Positions 44,137 to 55,371 of a stretch of 64,000 nt of DNA are shown here, piece by piece. Both the position numbers and the translations under genes were made by a program. Within the stretch, counting starts at the first letter, position 1; every line of letters starts with the position of its first letter. The DNA comes from Rhodoferax sp. Its GTDB lineage: Bacteria; Pseudomonadota; Gammaproteobacteria; Burkholderiales; Burkholderiaceae_C. The notes below the pieces were generated by a model that was given only the letters and a program-made list of their open reading frames with translations, was not told where the DNA came from and did not search any database. Where the stretch lies: assembly GCF_018063565.1 (NCBI RefSeq), contig NZ_JAGPBB010000001.1:81248-145247 (forward strand). Direction: 5' to 3'.

Positions 44137-45627
44137 ATGCCCGTGAGTATTGGGAACGCAGACATTGAACGCATTGTCAAGGCGGTGGTGCAGTCAATGG
44201 ATCGCAACACCACTGACAAGTCGCTAGTTGTGCCCGCCAGGCCAGCCAGCGCAACACCCAGGATGGGCTTGGCGCCCAAGTTCAACGCAGCGCCATCGTC
44301 ACCCTTGTCCATGGGTGTGTTTGCCTCGTTGGACGATGCAGTGGCTGAGGCAGACATTGCCTACCGCCAGATGCGCAGCGTAGCCATGCGCAGCCGGGTC
44401 GTGGCTGCCATTCGCCAGGCCGGTGAAAAACACGCGCAGGAGTTGGCCGAGCTGGCGGTGGCCGAGACCGGCATGGGCCGCGTGGCCGACAAGTTTGTCA
44501 AAAATGTCTCGCAAGCGCTGCACACGCCGGGTGTGGAATGCCTGGTGCCCACTGTGCTGTCGGGCGACCATGGCCTGACCTTGATGGAAAACGCCGCCTG
44601 GGGTGTGGTGGCCTCGGTCACACCAAGCACCAATCCGGCGGCGACCATCATCAACAACGCCATCAGCATGATTGCCGCTGGTAACACGGTGGTGTTTGCA
44701 CCGCACCCTGCGGCCAAAGGGGTTTCGCAGCGCGCCGTGGCCCTGCTGAACGAAGCGGTGGTGGCCGCAGGCGGTCCACGCAACGTGATCACCACGGTGG
44801 TGCAACCCAACATCGCCACGGCGCAAGCCCTGTTCAGCTACCCAGGCATCCATCTGCTGACGGTGACCGGTGGTGAAGCGGTGGTGGAAGAAGCGCGCAA
44901 ACACACCGACAAACGCCTGATCGCTGCCGGGGCCGGCAACCCGCCAGTGGTGGTGGATGAGACCGCCAACCTTGAAAAGGCTGGTCGTGACATCGTCTGG
45001 GGCGCGTCGTTTGACAACAACATCATCTGCGTGGATGAAAAAGAAGTCATCGTGGTGGCCTCGGTGGCGGACCGGCTCAAGGAAGAGATGAAGAAACACA
45101 AGGCGGTGGAGTTGACCGCCGACCAAGCCAAACGACTGCTCGAACTGGTGCTGGGCAAAGTGGGGCTGGACAACAAGGGTACGGTCAAGCGCGAGTGGGT
45201 GGGTCGCGATGCATCCAAGATTGCTGCGGCCATTGGCCTGTCGGTGCCATCAGATACGCGGCTGCTGTTTGTCGAAACCACGGCTGATCACCCGTTTGCG
45301 GTGACCGAGTTGATGATGCCGATCCTGCCGGTGATCCGAGTGGCCGATGTGGGCGAGGCGATTGATCTGGCGGTGAAGCTGGAAGGCAATTGCAAACACA
45401 CGGCGGCCATGCACTCGCGCAACCTCGACAACCTGGACCGCATGGCCAACGAGATCAATACCAGCATCTTTGTAAAAAATGGGCCGTGTCTGGCTGGCTT
45501 GGGTTTTGGTGGCGAAGGCTGGACCAGCATGACCATCACCACCCCGACCGGTGAAGGCGTGACGTCAGCGCGTACCTTTGTGCGGCATCGCCGCTGTGTG
45601 CTGGTGGATAACTTCCGCATCGTCTGA
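44137..45627 (+). CDS. eutE: CoA-acylating acetaldehyde dehydrogenase EutE
   Basis: A 496-aa enzyme oxidising acetaldehyde to acetyl-CoA with NAD+. The N-terminal NADIERIVKAVVQSM is an amphipathic helix like known encapsulation peptides. ETGMGR, SVTPSTNPAATI and the catalytic Cys298 in FDNNIICVDEKE are seen, as is the C-terminal VRHRRCVLVDNFRIV. It matches enteric EutE throughout. In enterics eutJ, eutG and eutH follow; here the repeat-bearing ORF follows after 5 bp. Confidence 0.96.
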   Translation: MPVSIGNADIERIVKAVVQSMDRNTTDKSLVVPARPASATPRMGLAPKFNAAPSSPLSMGVFASLDDAVAEADIAYRQMRSVAMRSRVVAAIRQAGEKHAQELAELAVAETGMGRVADKFVKNVSQALHTPGVECLVPTVLSGDHGLTLMENAAWGVVASVTPSTNPAATIINNAISMIAAGNTVVFAPHPAAKGVSQRAVALLNEAVVAAGGPRNVITTVVQPNIATAQALFSYPGIHLLTVTGGEAVVEEARKHTDKRLIAAGAGNPPVVVDETANLEKAGRDIVWGASFDNNIICVDEKEVIVVASVADRLKEEMKKHKAVELTADQAKRLLELVLGKVGLDNKGTVKREWVGRDASKIAAAIGLSVPSDTRLLFVETTADHPFAVTELMMPILPVIRVADVGEAIDLAVKLEGNCKHTAAMHSRNLDNLDRMANEINTSIFVKNGPCLAGLGFGGEGWTSMTITTPTGEGVTSARTFVRHRRCVLVDNFRIV

Positions 45628-45632
45628 AAACC

Positions 45633-46175
45633 ATGGGATGCAATAGCTGCCGCAGCGCTTGTGAAGATTGTTCTGAAGGGGGGATTACCTTCAGGCGATC
45701 GGCAAGACAGGCGGTGCCACTCGTCAGCCCTGCATCAGCTTGTGGAACTGAACCACGTAGCAGCGTTGATGGGGCGCGCGCTGTAGCAGATTTGGGGTCG
45801 GATCCCAATTCGGCCGCGCATGCTACGGACGGTCAACGGTCGTTCCCCGAATTGGGCTCTGACCCCAATTCTGCGGGCCACCCGGACAACAATTCAAGCG
45901 TCTTATTGGCCTCTAGCCCTTATGAAAAAAGCGTTCACAGCTATTTAATTGATATCAATCTATCGCTTGACCCGATCAACGGGTCGCGCGCTGAAATCCG
46001 CAGAATTGGGGTCAGAGCCCAATTCGAGGATGCATCTGCCACGAACTCAACGACAGTAGGCCGAATTGGGATCCGACCCCAAATCTGCTACGCCGCTTGC
46101 GAATTTGAGGCTGACCCGAAAAGTCGCTTGATCAATGATGCCGTTGTGCCGCTTACGCCAGGGGCCGCAGCATGA
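45633..46175 (+). CDS. Repeat-derived coupled ORF between eutE and eutA (function unknown)
   Basis: A 180-codon ORF that fits the gap exactly: ATG 5 bp after the eutE stop, and its TGA overlapping the eutA start (ATGA). Codons 52-152 cover a palindromic repeat element (45786-46089) and read [11 protein letters not shown], ten variable residues, [10 protein letters not shown], a variable part, GVRAQF, then RIGIRP. The 102 residues align without gaps to the ORF at 49876 with about half identical. No known domain is seen. It may be a translated spacer that keeps eutA translation coupled, or a real small protein. Its position is where enteric operons carry eutJGH. Confidence 0.45.
   Translation: MGCNSCRSACEDCSEGGITFRRSARQAVPLVSPASACGTEPRSSVDGARAVADLGSDPNSAAHATDGQRSFPELGSDPNSAGHPDNNSSVLLASSPYEKSVHSYLIDINLSLDPINGSRAEIRRIGVRAQFEDASATNSTTVGRIGIRPQICYAACEFEADPKSRLINDAVVPLTPGAAA
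45786..46089. repeat. Four-unit palindromic repeat element, copy 1 (A-B-B'-A')
   Basis: Units: A at 45786-45815 (GATTTGGGGTCGGATCCCAA core), B at 45846-45876 (GAATTGGGCTCTGACCCCAA core), and their reverse complements B' at 45998-46027 and A' at 46060-46089. Each unit is a hairpin with an 8-bp stem and 7-base loop (perfect in B, one mismatch in A). A starts to B starts is 60 bp, B to B' 152, B' to A' 62. The same spacings hold at 49972-50274. Flanks outside A and A' also match as extended terminal inverted sequence. Confidence 0.9.
45908..45948 (+). repeat. Short dispersed repeat, copy in element 1
   Basis: GGCCTCTAGCCC followed 31 bp after its start by AGCTATTTAA, with AAGCG between. The same layout and spacing occur at 50094 and 55331. 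It lies at the centre of the palindromic element, between B and B'. From memory this resembles a short repeat common in Comamonadaceae genomes. Confidence 0.7.
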
Positions 46176-47599
46176 CCACGCGTCTCCTGCGCAGCATCGG
46201 CATTGACTTGGGCACGACCACGTCGCAGGTGATATTTTCCGAGCTGGAAATCGTCAACACCGCCGGTCCCACCAGCGTGCCACACTATGAATTTTCCCGG
46301 CGCGACATTTTGTATGTCAGCCCGGTGATCTTCACGCCATTTGCGCCTGACGGTCAGGTAGACATACAGGCGCTGGATGCTTTTATTCGCCAGCAGTACG
46401 AATCGGCTGGCCTAACGGTCAGCGAAGTGGAGTCGGGCGCGGTCATCATCACCGGTGAAACCTCCAAGGTGCGCAACGCGCGTGACACGGTGATGTCGCT
46501 GGCCGCCGGCCTCGGTGATTTTGTGGTCGCTACAGCCGGGCCGCATCTGGAGTCGGTTATTGCCGGACGCGGCTCTGGCGCAGGGGCGTATTCTGAAGCC
46601 AACGCCGCCCGCGTGCTAAATATCGACGTGGGTGGGGGCACCTCCAACTACGCTGTGTTTGAAGGCGGCAGGGTGATCGATACGGCCTGCCTGAACGTCG
46701 GCGGCCATTTGATCCAAACCGATGGCAGTGGACGCGTCAGCACCATCCATGCGCCAGCCGCGCTGATCCTGCGCGAGCTGTTTGGCGCAGATCGCACCGC
46801 CGCCCAGCTTTCCACACAGGATTTGCAACAGGTGGCCGAGCGCATGGCGGCGTTGATTACTGAGCTGATACGGGCCCAGCCCTCCCCGCTCGCGCAGCAA
46901 CTCCTGATGACCGATGCCCTTCGTGAAGCCTACCGTTTTGACGCGGTGTTTATTTCGGGTGGCGTCGGTGAATGTATGGTGCATCCGTCCAACGAATCGC
47001 CCTACCGCTTTGGCGACATCGGCCCGCTGTTGGCGCAGGCGCTGGCACGGCAACTGGCTGCGGGTGGTTTTCCGGTGCGGGAACCCGCCCAAACCCTGCG
47101 CGCCACGGTGATTGGTGCGGGTGCCCACACCCTCACGCTGTCTGGCAGTACGGTCTGGAACAGATACCAGGGTGTGCCGCTGCGCAATCTGCCGGTGCTG
47201 CACCCGCGCCTGCGCTGGCGCGAGTTCCGACCCGGTGCGCTCAACAAAGCGTGGCAGGAGGCCGTCAAGGTCCACGATCTCGATGCTGCGGCTGACGTCT
47301 ACGCACTGGCGCTGCCGGACGACATCCCCGTCACCTGCCAGACCGTCTGGCAGGCAGCCCTTGAACTGCAAAGCTTTGCGCGCACGCAACCCGGCAGCAC
47401 GCACCCGCTGGTGGCGGTGACCTCGCAGGATGTGGGCAAGGCGCTGGGCATGGAACTGTTTCGCCTGGTCCCCGGGCGCGAGCTGCTGATCATCGACGAG
47501 GTCCACACCCGCGCTGGCGACTATCTGGACATTGGCAAGAGTTACTTCAACGGCGGCACCATTCCCGTGACCGTCAAGTCGCTTGCCTTTCCGCATTGA
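46172..47599 (+). CDS. eutA: Ethanolamine ammonia-lyase reactivating factor EutA
   Basis: A 475-aa Hsp70/actin-like ATPase that exchanges damaged cobalamin in EutBC. LLRSIGIDLGTTTSQVIFS (phosphate 1 motif), LNIDVGGGTSNYAVFEGG (phosphate 2), and ISGGVGEC with GAGAHTLTLSGST are the expected sites. The C-terminal DYLDIGKSYFNGGTIPVTVKSLAF matches enteric EutA. ATG 46172 overlaps the stop of the upstream repeat-derived ORF, so its translation may depend on that ORF. Confidence 0.95.
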   Translation: MTTRLLRSIGIDLGTTTSQVIFSELEIVNTAGPTSVPHYEFSRRDILYVSPVIFTPFAPDGQVDIQALDAFIRQQYESAGLTVSEVESGAVIITGETSKVRNARDTVMSLAAGLGDFVVATAGPHLESVIAGRGSGAGAYSEANAARVLNIDVGGGTSNYAVFEGGRVIDTACLNVGGHLIQTDGSGRVSTIHAPAALILRELFGADRTAAQLSTQDLQQVAERMAALITELIRAQPSPLAQQLLMTDALREAYRFDAVFISGGVGECMVHPSNESPYRFGDIGPLLAQALARQLAAGGFPVREPAQTLRATVIGAGAHTLTLSGSTVWNRYQGVPLRNLPVLHPRLRWREFRPGALNKAWQEAVKVHDLDAAADVYALALPDDIPVTCQTVWQAALELQSFARTQPGSTHPLVAVTSQDVGKALGMELFRLVPGRELLIIDEVHTRAGDYLDIGKSYFNGGTIPVTVKSLAFPH

Positions 47600-47611
47600 A
47601 GGACTACCAAC

Positions 47612-48973
47612 ATGATGCTTTCCACCCGACTGTTTGGCCACGGCTACACCTTCAAAAGTGTGAAAGACGTGCTGGCCAAAGCCAACGAGGCGCGCTCTGG
47701 CGACCGGCTGGCCGGCATTGCCGCGCAGGACGCGCGTGAACGCGTGGCGGCCAAACAGGTGCTCTCAGAATTGCTATTGTCCGACCTGCGCAACAACCCG
47801 GCGGTGCCGTATGAAGAAGACTGCGTCACGCGGCTGATTCAGGACAACGTGAACGAGGCGGTTTACAAACGCATTCAAGGTTGGAGCGTGGGTGAGCTGC
47901 GCGAATACCTGCTGGGCGACACCGCCACACCCGAAGAGCTGGAGGTGCTGCGCAAAGGACTCACGTCAGAAATGGTGGCGGCCGTGGCCAAGATCTGCTC
48001 GAACGGCGATCTGATTTACGGTGCCAAGCTGCTGCCGGTGGTGACCAAGGCCAACACCACTCTGGGCTTGCCCGGGCGCTTCAGCAGCCGCTTGCAGCCC
48101 AACGATACGCGCGACGACATTCGCAGCATCACGGCGCAGATTTACGAGGGCCTGTCGTACGGTTCGGGTGACGCGGTGATTGGCGTAAACCCGGTCACCG
48201 ACAACGTCGAGTCGGTCACGCGCATCCTGCATCAGGTGTATGACGTCATTGAGAAATACCAGATTCCGACGCAGGGCTGCGTGCTGGCGCACATCAGCAC
48301 GCAGATGGAAGCGGTGCGTAAGGGTGCGCCGATCGGTCTGTTGTTCCAGAGCATTTGCGGCAGCGAAAAAGGCTTGAAAGAGTTTGGCATTTCGTTGGAA
48401 ATGCTTGACGAGGCCGCCGATGTGGGGCGGCATTATTCGCGTGTGGCCGGTGGCCACTGCCTGTATTTTGAAACCGGTCAGGGCTCGGCCTTGTCGGCCA
48501 ACGCGCACCACGGCGCTGACCAGGTCACGATGGAAGCGCGCAACTACGGTCTGGCGCGGCATTATTCGCCCTTTATCGTCAACACCGTGGTCGGCTTTAT
48601 CGGCCCCGAATACCTCTACAACAGCCGGGAAATTCTGCGTGCCGGGCTCGAAGACCACTTCATGGGCAAGCTCTCGGGCATTTCGATGGGTTGTGACTGT
48701 TGTTACACCAACCATGCCGACGCCGACCAGAATTCCAACGAGAGTCTGTTGATGCTGATGGCCACGGCCGGTTGCAATTTTGTGATTGCCATGCCGCTGG
48801 GTGACGACATCATGCTCAATTACCAGACCTGCTCGTTCCACGATATCGCCACCGTACGGCAAACGCTGGGGCTGCGGCCAGCGCCCGAGTTTGAACACTG
48901 GCTGGAAGCACGCGGCTTGATGGCGAACGGCAAGCTGACCCGCGCCGCGGGTGACCCCTCGCTGTTTTTCTGA
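47612..48973 (+). CDS. eutB: Ethanolamine ammonia-lyase large subunit EutB
   Basis: A 453-aa catalytic subunit that, with EutC and adenosylcobalamin, splits ethanolamine into acetaldehyde and ammonia. GHGYTFKSVKDVLAKANE, SYGSGDAVIGVNPVTDN, GLLFQSICGSEKGL and SGISMGCDCCYTNHADADQ are hallmark segments. Length is equal to the enteric protein. It begins 12 bp after eutA and ends 12 bp before eutC, so the complex subunits are tightly co-expressed. No repeat interrupts eutA-B-C. Confidence 0.97.
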   Translation: MMLSTRLFGHGYTFKSVKDVLAKANEARSGDRLAGIAAQDARERVAAKQVLSELLLSDLRNNPAVPYEEDCVTRLIQDNVNEAVYKRIQGWSVGELREYLLGDTATPEELEVLRKGLTSEMVAAVAKICSNGDLIYGAKLLPVVTKANTTLGLPGRFSSRLQPNDTRDDIRSITAQIYEGLSYGSGDAVIGVNPVTDNVESVTRILHQVYDVIEKYQIPTQGCVLAHISTQMEAVRKGAPIGLLFQSICGSEKGLKEFGISLEMLDEAADVGRHYSRVAGGHCLYFETGQGSALSANAHHGADQVTMEARNYGLARHYSPFIVNTVVGFIGPEYLYNSREILRAGLEDHFMGKLSGISMGCDCCYTNHADADQNSNESLLMLMATAGCNFVIAMPLGDDIMLNYQTCSFHDIATVRQTLGLRPAPEFEHWLEARGLMANGKLTRAAGDPSLFF

Positions 48974-48985
48974 TTGGAGCGCACC

Positions 48986-49879
48986 ATGAACGAAGCCCAG
49001 ATCGCCGACATTGTTCGCGCCGTGATGCGCGAGCTGCAACAAACCCCCGGCGCACTCGCGTCCACCGAGGTCTCGCCTGCAGATGCGCCAGTACCGGGTG
49101 AACTGCCCGACCTGGGCAGCGAGGAAGCCCGCACCTGGATCGGCGTGGCTGATGCCAAAAGCTTGGAGGTGCTGACCGAACTGCGCCGCAGCACCCGCGC
49201 CCGCGTCTGTGCTGGGCGCATCGGCCCGCGCCCGCGCACCCAGTCACTGCTGCGTTTTCTGGCGGATCATTCGCGCTCCAAAGAAACCGTGCTGAGCGAA
49301 ATCCCAAATGAATGGGTGCAGCGCGCCGGGCTGCTGGAGGTGCAGACCGAGATTGTGGAAAAAGGCCAGTACCTGACACGCCCGGATCTGGGCCGGGTGC
49401 TGAGCGCCAAAGGGCTGGAGATGGTCAAAACCCAATGCATTCAGGCGCCTGATGTGCAGTTGCTGATCTCGGACGGCTTGTCCACCGAGGCCACCACGGC
49501 CAACTTTGACGACATCGTGCCGCCATTGATTCGCGGCATGGAATCCTTGCAGCTCAAGGCCGGCACACCGCTGTTTGTGCGTTTTGGCCGCGTCAAGGTC
49601 GAAGACCAGATTGGTGAGTTGCTAAAAGCCCGGGTGGTGATCCTGCTGATTGGTGAGCGCCCCGGTCTGGGCCAGTCCGAGAGCCTGTCGTGTTACATGG
49701 TCTACCAACCCACCCGCCAGACGGTGGAGGCTGAGCGCACCTGTATTTCCAACATCCACCGGGGTGGTACCCCACCCGTTGAAGCGGCGGCCGTGATCGC
49801 CGAACTGGCGGCGCGCATGCTCAAAGAACAGTGCAGCGGGATTGCGTTGGGCAAAAAAATGGCGGGGGGTGGGTCATGA
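48986..49879 (+). CDS. eutC: Ethanolamine ammonia-lyase small subunit EutC
   Basis: About 297 aa; with EutB forms the cobalamin site. N-terminal [17 protein letters not shown] resembles the encapsulation helix of enteric EutC, followed by a Pro/Gly linker. [57 protein letters not shown] are family motifs. ATG 48986 is preferred over TTG 48974. The TGA stop (49877-49879) overlaps ATG 49876 of the following repeat-derived ORF. Confidence 0.95.
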
Positions 49880-50328
49880 AGGCTACCGCGATAAACCGAA
49901 GGCTGGCCCAAATGCCACCGCCAATCAGGCAGTCGGGTATGCATTGCAGCGTTGATCGCGTGCGCGATGTAGCAGATTTGGGGTCGGATCCCAATTCGGC
50001 CCGGCACTTTAGGATTCGTGACGAAAGCATCCCCGAATTGGGCTCTGACCCCAATTCTGCGGGTTATCGGGCAGACAGTTCAAGCCTGTTTTATGCCTCT
50101 AGCCCAGACACAGCAAGCGCCAAAAGCTATTTAGTTGATAACAATCCAACGTCGCGCTCGACCAGTGGACCATGCGCTGAAACCCGCAAAATGGGGGTCA
50201 GAGCCCAATTCGGGAATGTTTTGCCCGCCTATCCAGCGCCAGTGAGCCGAATTGGGATCCGACCCCCATTCCGCTACACCGCGCATCTGCCCTGCGCCAC
50301 CTTTAAAGTCCGCCATGTCCACCTTTGA
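49876..50328 (+). CDS. Repeat-derived coupled ORF between eutC and eutL (function unknown)
   Basis: A 150-codon ORF. Its ATG overlaps the eutC stop (ATGA), and its stop lies 14 bp inside eutL, so it bridges the gap by translational coupling. It spans the second palindromic element (49972-50274) in the same frame as the ORF at 45633 and as eutK: SVD.. [33 protein letters not shown]. About 53 of 102 residues match the first ORF with no gaps; several differences are conservative. No known domain. It could be a translated spacer rather than a functional protein. Confidence 0.45.
49972..50274. repeat. Four-unit palindromic repeat element, copy 2 (A-B-B'-A')
   Basis: A at 49972-50001, B at 50032-50062, B' at 50184-50212, A' at 50246-50274. 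All start-to-start distances (60, 152, 62) equal those of copy 1, though the 30-bp spacers share only about a third of positions. In B' and A' the AATTGGGG core has become AATGGGGG and the CCCCAAAT core CCCCCATT, so the right arm has drifted. Both A units and both B units of the left arm are identical to copy 1 in the core. Confidence 0.9.
50094..50134 (+). repeat. Short dispersed repeat, copy in element 2
   Basis: TGCCTCTAGCCC with AGCTATTTAG 31 bp from the start. Same position relative to the palindromic units as in element 1, so the two elements carry it as part of the unit. About two thirds of bases match. Confidence 0.6.
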
Positions 50329-50971
50329 AAAAATTCCGGTGTCAGTCTGCGCCGTGCGGCTGATCTCGTCGCTGCAGGAAGATTTCAAAAAAGAACTCAA
50401 ACTCGACGACAGTGTGTTTAGCCTGGGTGTGTTTACCGCCGATTCGGACGACGTGGCCTACATCGCGGCCGACGAGGCCACCAAGCAGGCCAATGTGCGC
50501 GTGGTCTATGGCAGCTCGTTCTACGCCGGTGCCAAGCACGGCCCATCGAGCACGGCGGGCGAAGTGATCCTGATGCTGGCCGGCCCGTCGCCTGCCGAGG
50601 TGCGCTCGGGGCTGGACGCGGCACTCGGCGCGGTGCGCGATGGCGCGGCGTTTCAGTGGGCCAACGATGCCCACACCGTGGCCTTTTTGTCGCATGTGGT
50701 GACGCGCTGCGGGTCGTATCTGGCCGAGGTGGCCGGCGTCAAGGAAGGTGACTCGATGGCCTATCTGGTCGCACCTCCGCTGGAGGCCGCCGTGGGTCTG
50801 GATGCCGCACTCAAAGCGGCTGAGGTGCGACTGGCCGGTTATGTGCGTCCGCCATCCCCCACCAACTATTCCGGTGCCTACCTGCAAGGCTCCCAAGCCG
50901 CGTGCCGCGCCGCCTGTGACGCGTTTTCCCGCACCGTTGCTGATATCGCAGCGCAACCTTTGGTGTACTGA
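50315..50971 (+). CDS. eutL: Trimeric tandem-BMC shell protein EutL
   Basis: A 218-aa protein with two permuted BMC domains; trimers have a gated pore. [32 protein letters not shown]-type ([17 protein letters not shown]) and the second-domain [23 protein letters not shown] are seen. Length equals enteric EutL (219). ATG 50315 gives the right N terminus; it overlaps the preceding repeat-derived ORF by 14 bp. It ends one base before eutK. Confidence 0.95.
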
Positions 50972-50972
50972 G

Positions 50973-51764
50973 ATGAAGCACGCCCTGGGCTTTCTGGAAG
51001 TGCGTGGGCTGGTGGCCGGCATTGAGTGCGCCGACGCCATGCTCAAAGCCGCCAACGTGCGCCTGATCACGCAGATTATCACCAACCCTGCGCTGATCAC
51101 ACTGATCGTCGAGGGCGACATCGGCTCCTGCCGCGCCGCCATCGATGCCGGCCGCATGGCTGCTGAGCGACTGGGTGCCATGGTCAGCGAAAAAGTCATT
51201 GGCCGCCCCGAACCGGATCTGGCGCTGTTTGTAAATGCCAAGCAGCGCTGGAAAGCACCAACCGGTCAGCCCAGCGGCAACATCAGCAGAAACGGAATTG
51301 GAAATGTCAGCGTGCAGCCAGAGGTAGCGATCTCCCCGGAAGTCCATGAATCGTTGCCCGTCGATAAGGCGCACGGCTTAGCAGATTTGGGGTCGGATCC
51401 CAATTCGGCCAACAACAGCCAATTTGATGCACAAGCCGCCCCCGAATTGGGCTCTGACCCCAATTCTGCGGACCCTACCGACGACGACCTATCGGCCAGC
51501 CCGCATGACATCAACAACGCGGACCGCCAGCCAGCCAATTCAGCGGACCATCCATCCGCCCCGCGACAGAACGATCACGATGTCAACCCGCCAGACCCAC
51601 TGCAAGCCCTCCTCGCCTACCTGACCCCCATCCCCAACGGCAAACGCCTCGATCAACTGGCGGCAACCATGAACTTGCCGGAAAAAGCGCTTCATGCGCT
51701 TTTGAACACCGCCCTCAACCAAGGTCGCCTGAAAAAGCTTGGCAGCCGCTACATGATCCCTTAA
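50973..51764 (+). CDS. eutK: Shell protein EutK with repeat-expanded linker and C-terminal HTH-like domain
   Basis: About 263 aa, against about 166 in E. coli. Residues 1-95 are a BMC domain (ALGFLEVRGLVAGIECADAMLKAA). The last about 55 residues (ALLAYLTPIPNGKRLDQLA and on to YMIP) match the helix-turn-helix-like tail of EutK. Between them is an acidic, polar, probably disordered linker of about 115 residues. Codons about 137-167 of it are encoded by the A and B palindromic units (51381-51471): [10 protein letters not shown] and [10 protein letters not shown]. Frame is intact. It is one base after the eutL stop. Confidence 0.88.
   Translation: MKHALGFLEVRGLVAGIECADAMLKAANVRLITQIITNPALITLIVEGDIGSCRAAIDAGRMAAERLGAMVSEKVIGRPEPDLALFVNAKQRWKAPTGQPSGNISRNGIGNVSVQPEVAISPEVHESLPVDKAHGLADLGSDPNSANNSQFDAQAAPELGSDPNSADPTDDDLSASPHDINNADRQPANSADHPSAPRQNDHDVNPPDPLQALLAYLTPIPNGKRLDQLAATMNLPEKALHALLNTALNQGRLKKLGSRYMIP
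51381..51471 (+). repeat. Half palindromic element (A-B) inside eutK
   Basis: A at 51381-51410 and B at 51441-51471, 60 bp apart, exactly as in the two intergenic elements. The spacer differs from both. No clear B' or A' follow. It encodes [10 protein letters not shown] and [10 protein letters not shown] in the eutK frame. The preceding V-D-x4-L residues also match the elements, so homology extends a little upstream. Confidence 0.9.
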
Positions 51765-53773: not shown

Positions 53774-55252
53774 ATGTCAGAGCATTCAGGTGTTCAGTAC
53801 ACCAAAGTTGATCAGGCCTATTTTGAGAAGCGTGGGCTGCGCCGCTACGCAGGTGTTTGGTCGCTCTGGGCCCTGGGGGTGGGCGCCGTGATCTCTGGCC
53901 ACTTCTCGGGGTGGAACCTGGGGCTGGCCAATGGCTGGGGCAGCATGCTGTTTGCCACCATCATCATCGCCATCATGTATCTGGGGCTGACCTTCTCGCT
54001 GGCCGAAATGTCACCGGCATTGCCGCACACGGGTGGTGCCTATTCCTTTGCGCGCACTGCCATGGGGCCATGGGGTGGGTTCCTGACTGGCCTGTCGGAA
54101 AACGTTGAGTACGTCATCACCCCTGCGGTCATCGTCTATTTCATCAGCAGTTACATGGGCGGCATTTTTGGCACGCCCACCCAGTACCTGCCGCTGTGGT
54201 GGATTGGCTTTTACATCTTCTTTGTCGGGCTCAACATCGTGGGCGTGGAGCTGTCCTTCAAGGTCACCCTTGTGATCACGCTTTTGGCCTTGGCCTGCCT
54301 GGTGGTGTTTTGGGTCAGTGCCTTCCCCACGATCGACTTCAGTCGTTGGGCGATGAATGTGGGCGAAGGCGGTGCGCTGCTGGAGAATGGCAATGGCCCT
54401 CTGTTGCCTATGGGCATCACGGGTGTACTGGCGGCCATGCCCTTTGCGGTGTGGCTTTTTTTGGCCATTGAGCAGCTGCCGCTGGCCGCCGAAGAGTCCG
54501 TGGACCCGAAACGTGACATGCCACGCGGTATTCTGGCGGGCATCTTTACGCTGATCTTCTCTGCCTTCATGGTGCTGTGGCTCAACCCCTCGATTGCTGG
54601 CATTGGTGCACACACGCTGGCCAAGTCTGGCGAACCGCTGCTGGATGGTTTCAAAGCCATCTATGGTGACGGCATTGCCAAAATGCTGGCCCTGGTCGCC
54701 GTGCTGGGCTTGATTGCCAGCTTTCACACCATCATTTTTGCCAAGGGACGTCAAATCTATTCGCTAAGCCGCGCGGGTTACTTTCCCTCGGTCTTGTCCA
54801 TTACCCATGGCAGTCGCAAGACGCCGCACCTGGCGATGATTTTGGGCTCTGTGGTGGCGCTGGCCGTGATGTTTGTGCTGTGGTTCAGCCTGGGCTCGGA
54901 CAAGGGCGCTGCAGTCATTGGTGGCACGCTGCTCAACATGGCTGTGTTTGGTGCCATGTTTTCCTACATCATGCAGGCTTTGTCGTTTATCTTGTTGCGC
55001 AAGAACATGCCCAACATCCCGCGCCCCTACCGCAGCCCCTTGGGTGTGTTTGGTGCCGGGTTAACCGTGCTGATTGCCATTGTCACCCTCTACTTCCAGC
55101 TGAGTGATCCGCTTTACCGTGATGGCGTGATGTGGGTGGCGGTATGGTTTGCCATCGGTATTGCCTACTTTGCACTGGTGGGACGCAAGCACCTCATCCT
55201 CTCGCCCGAAGAAGAGTTTGCGATGGAAATGGCTGAAAAACCGCACGCCTGA
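53774..55252 (+). CDS. eat: Ethanolamine permease, Eat family (APC superfamily)
   Basis: A 492-aa transporter with about 12 membrane helices. ALGVGAVISGHFSGWNLGL, EMSPALPHTGGAYSFARTAMGP and the FLAIEQLPLAAEESVDPKRDMPRG-type loop fit APC/Eat transporters. It replaces EutH as uptake route. AAGGAG lies before ATG 53774. It lies 124 bp after the pduT-like gene, so it may have its own promoter; I see no clear one. Confidence 0.9.
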   Translation: MSEHSGVQYTKVDQAYFEKRGLRRYAGVWSLWALGVGAVISGHFSGWNLGLANGWGSMLFATIIIAIMYLGLTFSLAEMSPALPHTGGAYSFARTAMGPWGGFLTGLSENVEYVITPAVIVYFISSYMGGIFGTPTQYLPLWWIGFYIFFVGLNIVGVELSFKVTLVITLLALACLVVFWVSAFPTIDFSRWAMNVGEGGALLENGNGPLLPMGITGVLAAMPFAVWLFLAIEQLPLAAEESVDPKRDMPRGILAGIFTLIFSAFMVLWLNPSIAGIGAHTLAKSGEPLLDGFKAIYGDGIAKMLALVAVLGLIASFHTIIFAKGRQIYSLSRAGYFPSVLSITHGSRKTPHLAMILGSVVALAVMFVLWFSLGSDKGAAVIGGTLLNMAVFGAMFSYIMQALSFILLRKNMPNIPRPYRSPLGVFGAGLTVLIAIVTLYFQLSDPLYRDGVMWVAVWFAIGIAYFALVGRKHLILSPEEEFAMEMAEKPHA

Positions 55253-55330: not shown

Positions 55331-55371
55331 GGCCTCTAGCCCAAGCTCAATAAGCGCTGTAAGCTATAAAA
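55331..55371 (+). repeat. Short dispersed repeat in eat-potC intergenic region
   Basis: GGCCTCTAGCCC with AGCTATAAAA 31 bp from the start and TAAGCGCT between. Lies between convergent eat and potC. Part of it forms an inverted repeat with AGCTTGGG at 55309, which might act as terminator structure, though no T-run follows. Confidence 0.65.

Follow-up and report, generated by a model that had tools for sequence, protein, structure and literature searches.

Why should palindromic repeats that lie between the genes of an operon remain open in a single reading frame? The question is raised by the eut (ethanolamine) operon in a 64-kb stretch of Rhodoferax DNA (contig NZ_JAGPBB010000001.1; hereafter the window), where paired palindromic units, A and B, occur at three places: between eutE and eutA, between eutC and eutL, and inside eutK. 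The original prediction proposed that this element inserts so that reading stays open, keeping the eut genes translationally coupled, or that it encodes a real peptide. We find that the A-B units form a family of the REPIN type (doublets of inverted repetitive extragenic palindromes, REPs), with a predicted hairpin, a phase rule inside genes, open frames and some empty sites. The reading that we consider probable, with appreciable room for doubt, is that the copies surviving in genes and tight junctions are mostly those that can be read through, with selection acting on the frame and not on the peptide.

The operon holds five REPIN-like hairpins, two in each gap and one in eutK; all features named here are on the plus strand. 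The first gap, between eutE (aldehyde dehydrogenase, 44137..45627; Pfam Aldedh, 2.1e-33) and eutA (46172..47599; Pfam EutA, 7.1e-162), is filled by gap open reading frame (ORF) 1 (45633..46175), a small Cys-rich gene with a conserved N-terminal part and two REPINs in its 3' part. It starts 5 nt past the eutE stop and ends in an ATGA overlap with eutA at 46172. REPIN 1 (A-B, 45786..45874) is in phase 0, which gives the LGSDPN reading, and REPIN 2 (B'-A', 46000..46088) is inverted and in phase 2 (RIGVRAQF). Between them lies a repeat of another kind (family D7; GCCTCTAGCCC...AGCTAT, 45909..45944). Gap ORF 2 (49876..50328) fills the second gap in the same manner, starting in an ATGA overlap with the stop (49877-49879) of eutC (48986..49879; Pfam EutC, 1.5e-76) and ending 14 nt inside eutL (BMC shell protein, 50315..50971; Pfam BMC, 1.5e-16). 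It carries REPIN 3 (A-B, 49972..50060, phase 0), the same central repeat (50095..50130) and the inverted REPIN 4 (B'-A', 50186..50274, phase 2). The gene eutK (50973..51764) encodes a BMC domain (Pfam BMC, 3.8e-22), a long linker and an EutK C-terminal domain (EutK_C, 7e-05, under the curated cut-off), with REPIN 5 (51381..51469) in frame in the linker, in phase 0.

These coordinates and frames agree with the original prediction. At all three loci the A-B units read, in the plus-strand frame, as two ten-residue stretches separated by ten residues, and in eutK this is the gene's own frame; the second doublet of each gap, being in the other phase, reads as a stretch of 16 residues. Aligned without gaps, the two gap ORFs share at best 54 identities over 102 residues, where about 53 had been counted. 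The units are far more frequent in the window than chance would give, with 10 matches at ≤2 mismatches where 100 shuffles yielded 0.26 on average. Gap ORF 1 has no Pfam family at E 0.01 and no NCBIfam family at E 1 in the versions tested. A third copy of the D7 repeat, lacking palindromes, is located at 55332-55367, just past an ORF ending at 55252.

Each pair of units consists of two 28-nt arms and a 33-nt loop in a 60-nt register, and is predicted to form a single hairpin of about 90 nt (z from -3.7 to -5.4 in all five window copies). A doublet scan of 95 sources yielded 105 doublets, and neighbouring F-R units stand exactly 60 nt apart in 99 cases, against 4 for the next commonest F-R spacing. 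Two REP palindromes in inverted orientation at a fixed distance are thus present, as expected of a REPIN. The predicted hairpin is accompanied by compensatory changes: stem cells are canonical in 89% of cases versus at most 56% when slid, and changes on both sides of the stem are seen at 11 of 28 pairs in genic copies and 12 of 28 in non-genic copies. GTAG is found just outside one arm in four of the five window doublets, which were the doublets inspected for it. Two properties depart from those of REPINs: the own genome contains 24 forward-strand unit matches at ≤3 mismatches, which is not a high copy number, and 27 of the 96 distinct 60-nt copies lie inside called genes rather than outside them.

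The family is widespread in the genus. A unit at ≤1 mismatch occurs in 54 of 89 genomes and the 31-residue peptide is matched at E 1 in 44 of them; plasmids gave no match to the peptide at E 0.01. Eighty stretches with the element were hand-picked among the peptide matches listed, G017 C304 and two places of G088 being among those left out. Because a unit with full symmetry counts as F in the doublet scan, no doublet was scored in L144, L170 and L173 despite a peptide match. An exact-doublet scan of named genomes, blind to frame, returned 48 stretches: 26 titled Rhodoferax, 13 from other Betaproteobacteria or Comamonadaceae, two from Polaromonas, one each from Hydrogenophaga, Ramlibacter and Alphaproteobacteria, and four from one Actinomycetota metagenome-assembled genome (MAG), ACE_ACT3. 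In these last four (L200, L208, L230 and L238) LGSDPN is read in the longest frame of three, in a genome whose open frames leave gene status unsure. At the family level (399 genomes, own genus included), a doublet at ≤2 mismatches occurs in 14 genomes, from which loci L270-L285 were read.

Inside genes the element follows a phase rule. All 27 copies in the 60-nt register within called genes are in phase 0, the two arms being read in one frame by virtue of their exact 60-nt distance. Thirteen are in UvrA, five in a CusA-like pump (Pfam ACR_tran), three in a YgiQ-like radical SAM protein (Pfam Radical_SAM_N and DUF3362), three in a DNA polymerase III alpha-type protein, two in EutK and one in an ORF without a Pfam domain (L166). 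CusA and YgiQ are presumed names, and we take the polymerase to be DnaE2 from its motif. Pfam searches with 13 of the genic proteins or stretches found fitting domains in 12; the remaining copies were assigned from flanking sequence and a UvrA search. The count includes a copy at a contig end (L181) and leaves out exact duplicates, L160 (which coincides with a part of L153) and the loci in which the scan gave no doublet (L038 and L077-L081). If the stop-free sense phases were equally probable, the chance of 27 copies all in phase 0 would be 10^-7, a value that is weaker in truth because of orthologous copies. Two genic copies with spacings of 31 and 61, outside the 27, are in phase 1.

Of the 69 copies outside called genes, by contrast, 34 contain a phase-0 stop on the plus strand of the locus, and 20 contain one on the opposite strand. 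Exact-pair doublets with a longest ORF of at least 100 codons on each side are in phase 0 in 17 of 18 cases, a set that overlaps the 27 and takes three members, the exception included, from the Actinomycetota MAG with its unreliable open frames. Outside the genus, the doublets in long ORFs are in phase 0 in 11 cases, ambiguous in L270 and in phase 1 in L271, some of the genes being shared with the exact-doublet scan. The L271 frame (386-2893, 836 residues) joins glycosyltransferase-9 and Kdo-transferase N domains through its phase-1 doublet, like a gene fusion.

A loop of UvrA shows the insertion sites in filled and empty form. The UvrA query matched in 82 of the 89 genomes, and in the 30 loci that were read the loop is bare in 18, has a few extra residues in four, contains this element in frame in five and carries other inserts in three. 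The same loop has therefore been reused. The three other inserts (L243, L251 and L257), also in frame, resemble peptides of what are presumably other palindrome families. Domains identified on the ORFs and the empty sites of this one UvrA loop show in-frame insertion into conserved protein genes, the behavior of protein-coding palindromic elements such as those of Rickettsia (Rickettsia palindromic elements, RPEs).

Seven of the 89 genomes, own included, have eutL. The sister genome G033 contains the same five doublets in its eut operon. Measured from the last aligned eutC codon, the distance to eutL is 4-13 nt in four genomes and 440, 545 and 309 nt in the own genome (G000), G033 and G065, respectively; in these three an ORF runs from an ATGA with eutC to about the eutL start. 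The 309-nt insert of G065 is other sequence with half a unit, and is also open. EutK is about 95 residues long in five other genomes, and is long, with the element and an EutK_C-like end, only in G000 and G033 (n = 7). A 111-nt length difference in eutK was dropped as evidence, since a real gene holds its frame anyway. Between eutE and eutA, a small ORF is present in all seven genomes; its N-terminal CxxCxxxCxxC(S/A)EGGITF is kept in six, with G065 having a degenerate short form. In full, the motif of this Cys-rich ORF (window 45633-45722 and the six other genomes) reads MxCxxCxxxCxxC(S/A)EGGITF in six of seven, and in G049 the reading of its C-terminal end passes through GGGCTAGAGGCC, which is the central repeat reversed. 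The idea that the element made the start of this ORF was rejected, as the small ORF is older.

The two gaps allow selection on frame to be compared with selection on peptide. Between G000 and G033 the eutE-eutA gap measures 544 versus 490 nt and the eutC-eutL gap 435 versus 534 nt; the differences, 54 and 99, are multiples of 3, a statement made for the gaps, since the length of any ORF is divisible by 3. Both gap ORFs end at the same junctions in the two genomes. Substitutions at codon positions 1/2/3 number 29/23/42 in ORF 1, 44/36/37 in ORF 2 (sites aligned in the same frame) and 30/20/62 in eutK. The element part of ORF 1 has little bias (21/17/28), and within eutK the BMC part (6/4/26) can be set beside the linker with the element (16/13/22). 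These counts indicate that the BMC shell domain is clearly constrained and the gap ORFs hardly. The peptide of the eutC-eutL ORF is probably not under selection, as its codon positions are without bias, and the proposal of a real encoded peptide is not supported, the same counts speaking against it. They were rejected as proof for the gap ORFs, and the lack of bias does not by itself make the openness a matter of chance, as the original prediction would have had it. Measured from start to start, the doublets of a pair are separated by 214 nt in each window gap and in one of the G033 eut gaps, by 241 nt in the remaining G033 eut gap, by 181 nt in L123 and by 250 nt in L136, where a neighbour lies past the end of the contig. 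Every one of these distances is 1 mod 3, as the frame requires; for a pair in a convergent gap (L184) the distance is 116 nt, or 2 mod 3.

The same question was put to co-directional gaps of 150-700 nt across the genus, a gap being called open when at least 90% of it is open in one frame. Sense-open gaps number 22 among 39 with the element and antisense-open gaps six; without the eut gaps the numbers are 18 and six of 35 (Wilcoxon p = 4e-5). Judged by stop counts, the sense excess within element gaps remains (p = 0.0003-0.006). With the lower limit set at 100 nt, filled gaps number 27; in 24 the filling is an ORF of its own, and in three it is in frame with the downstream gene. Six gap-filling ORFs begin at -4, seven end at +4 and two (L123 and L138) do both. 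Three filled junctions were followed into relatives, and a bare -4 overlap was found at two. The first junction, which by its look joins a permease gene to that of an ABC ATPase, was compared in 21 loci with an identity of 92% or more at the upstream gene end; six of them, own genome included, have the -4 overlap, five being shown base by base. G033 has 499 nt with four units there and the other loci -10 to 87 nt. In G033 neither the upstream stop nor the downstream start is disrupted, and a frame of 168 residues reaches from the left ATGA to the right one (sense 0.99, antisense 0.69). At the second, G038 has 297 nt (sense 0.99, antisense 0.43) and its nearest relative (89% identical) a -4 overlap. 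At the third, G013 has 401 nt (sense 1.00, antisense 0.49) and seven relatives 9-38 nt. The prediction that reading stays open holds in G033, G065 and other junctions of the genus. Translational coupling would be the consequence, and the genus-wide support for it is weakened by its dependence on the metric, as detailed below.

A REP-associated tyrosine transposase (RAYT) is the natural candidate for moving the units. Of 31 Y1_Tnp gene loci, six (L001 of the own genome and five others) have the palindrome on both sides and two on one side, the flanking version being the variant GATTCCAA; a palindrome flanking a RAYT (Y1_Tnp) gene is a further property of REPINs. In the own genome, TTGGGGTCAGATTCCAA stands on either side of the RAYT-like gene (C113) in F...R order, an arrangement shared by five other such genes, and the palindrome considered for RAYT action is that of GGGGTCAGA. 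Mobility by this enzyme is the natural reading of such flanks, and the A-B units were probably moved by a RAYT transposase. The mere presence of Y1_Tnp is not discriminating, because 79 of the 89 genomes have one, compared to the 44 with a peptide match.

We envisage that REPIN copies land in many places in Rhodoferax and other family members, and that insertions at which the ribosome stops, within genes or at coupled junctions, would not persist. Being polar and resembling a linker, the LGSDPNS reading may be tolerated in protein loops, which could give rise to the phase rule. In the eut operon, one doublet would have entered the EutK linker, one inverted pair the Cys-rich gene and one such pair the eutC-eutL junction. 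Selection on the frame would preserve protein integrity in genes and unbroken translation in operon gaps, where the benefit may be coupled initiation or escape from Rho-type polarity, two effects that the data do not separate. This selective reason, as well as translation of the gap ORFs and coupling across element gaps, is what we infer from the arrangement. A more specific proposal, possible but offered tentatively, is that a REPIN composite entering the ATGA overlap of coupled operon genes doubles that overlap and provides, as a spacer, an ORF along which the ribosome is passed from one gene to the next; the composite would be kept for coupling, with selection on the frame and not on the peptide.

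Several observations weigh against selection on the frame, and some of them would suit an account by chance, in which palindromes are stop-poor in any frame, the genomes are GC-rich and the eut gaps are lucky ones chosen by eye. Of the 39 element gaps, 17 fall short of 90% openness in sense. The 52 control gaps without the element also show a weak sense excess (17 versus 11 in antisense, p = 0.027), and element gaps without eut exceed these controls on the longest-open-fraction metric (p = 0.0007) but not clearly by stop counts (p = 0.076, 0.065 and 0.21 with 0, 30 and 60 nt trimmed). At the third junction, 205-289 nt of other sequence is inserted in four relatives, and in three of them the insert is equally open in antisense. 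The stems are stop-poor, and a neutral G000-G033 simulation keeps ORF 2 free of stops at 0.11-0.20 and ORF 1 at 0.28-0.33, a result that is compatible with frame selection and weak as regards proof. The eutE-eutA ORF is owed in part to a small gene that was there before. The genic copies include many orthologues and do not amount to 27 independent events, and the gene calls come from a home-made codon model. As to the transposase, 23 of the 31 Y1_Tnp loci lack a flanking palindrome at ≤2 mismatches, among them L286-L307 with higher model scores. Chance nevertheless has to contend with the phase of the genic copies, with a eutC-eutL gap that is open in two genomes with related inserts (G000 and G033) and again in G065 with a different one, and with the sense excess over antisense that persists without eut and by stop counts. 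Composition alone gives open-gap probabilities of 0.0008 and 0.006 for the two eut gaps, values that overstate the case against chance because the stems are stop-poor. On balance we regard chance as unlikely.

Two other accounts leave the frame incidental or make the peptide the object of selection. REPs are thought to protect or process mRNA in Escherichia coli, and hairpins that do so between the eut cistrons would agree with the strong predicted hairpins of all five window copies and with stems conserved through changes on both sides. However, genic copies conserve their stems alike (0.894 versus 0.887 canonical), which fits mobility equally well, and a purely RNA role predicts no phase rule; we consider it improbable. 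That the gap ORFs are functional peptides of the ethanolamine microcompartment we find very hard to credit. The Cys motif of ORF 1, kept in most eutL genomes, speaks for it, and this N-terminus may indeed be functional, yet separate from the element; the codon-position counts of ORF 2 and of the element part of ORF 1 argue against it, as do the few nucleotides that suffice between eutC and eutL in four relatives. Preservation of the frame, by read-through of the surviving copies, accounts best for genes and junctions together.

If this is correct, the family offers insertions made by nature, for some of which close relatives show the empty site, and the cost of broken translation between operon genes could be measured on them directly. 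It would explain how operon gaps can grow without loss of coupling, and spacer ORFs and protein linkers would have one route of origin in selfish DNA. The UvrA loop, filled by seemingly different palindrome families, would serve as a test bed for protein tolerance.

The original prediction knew of no system like this one, which was too broad with respect to genes, as in-frame RPE palindromes and intragenic REPs are known (PMC3733652, PMC2229807). Conserved genes, uvrA and dnaE2 among them, have been described as sites of REPs; over half of these intragenic REPs are dimers or groups that encode 20-30 residues, and GTAG REPs are associated with transposase genes (PMC3733652). The intragenic GTAG/CGTC REPs of that work share with the present family their location inside such genes; neither Rhodoferax nor Polaromonas is mentioned in its main text, and the single-phase rule and the operon-gap ORFs are seen here and were not found in its accessible portion. 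The Rickettsia RPE shares in-frame palindromic insertion in unrelated conserved proteins (PMC2229807, PMC3733652), but belongs to another bacterial class, has units of 105-146 bp and, in the text at hand, no described palindrome flanking a transposase; it is set apart by description, not by sequence. REPINs with RAYT (PMC3116915) have the inverted REP doublet, preferred spacing, compensatory hairpin and RAYT-flanking palindromes in common with the element, while being described there as extragenic, in contrast to its genic copies and low copy number in the own genome. Enterobacterial small mobile sequences with ORFs (PMC2759123, PMC2229807) are likewise small repeats fused in frame to genes, and differ in being longer units (about 103-168 bp) of the miniature inverted-repeat transposable element type, without REP doublets as far as described. 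Among the publications surveyed, mostly as titles and abstract openings, none was recognised as dealing with the element in Rhodoferax or with operon-gap ORFs made by REPs. REPs inside genes are therefore already known from the literature at hand, and the present family is a further one of that sort; this REPIN family itself, its single phase and its spacer ORFs in coupled junctions were not found in print in this survey, and the operon-junction part is less expected than the intragenic part.

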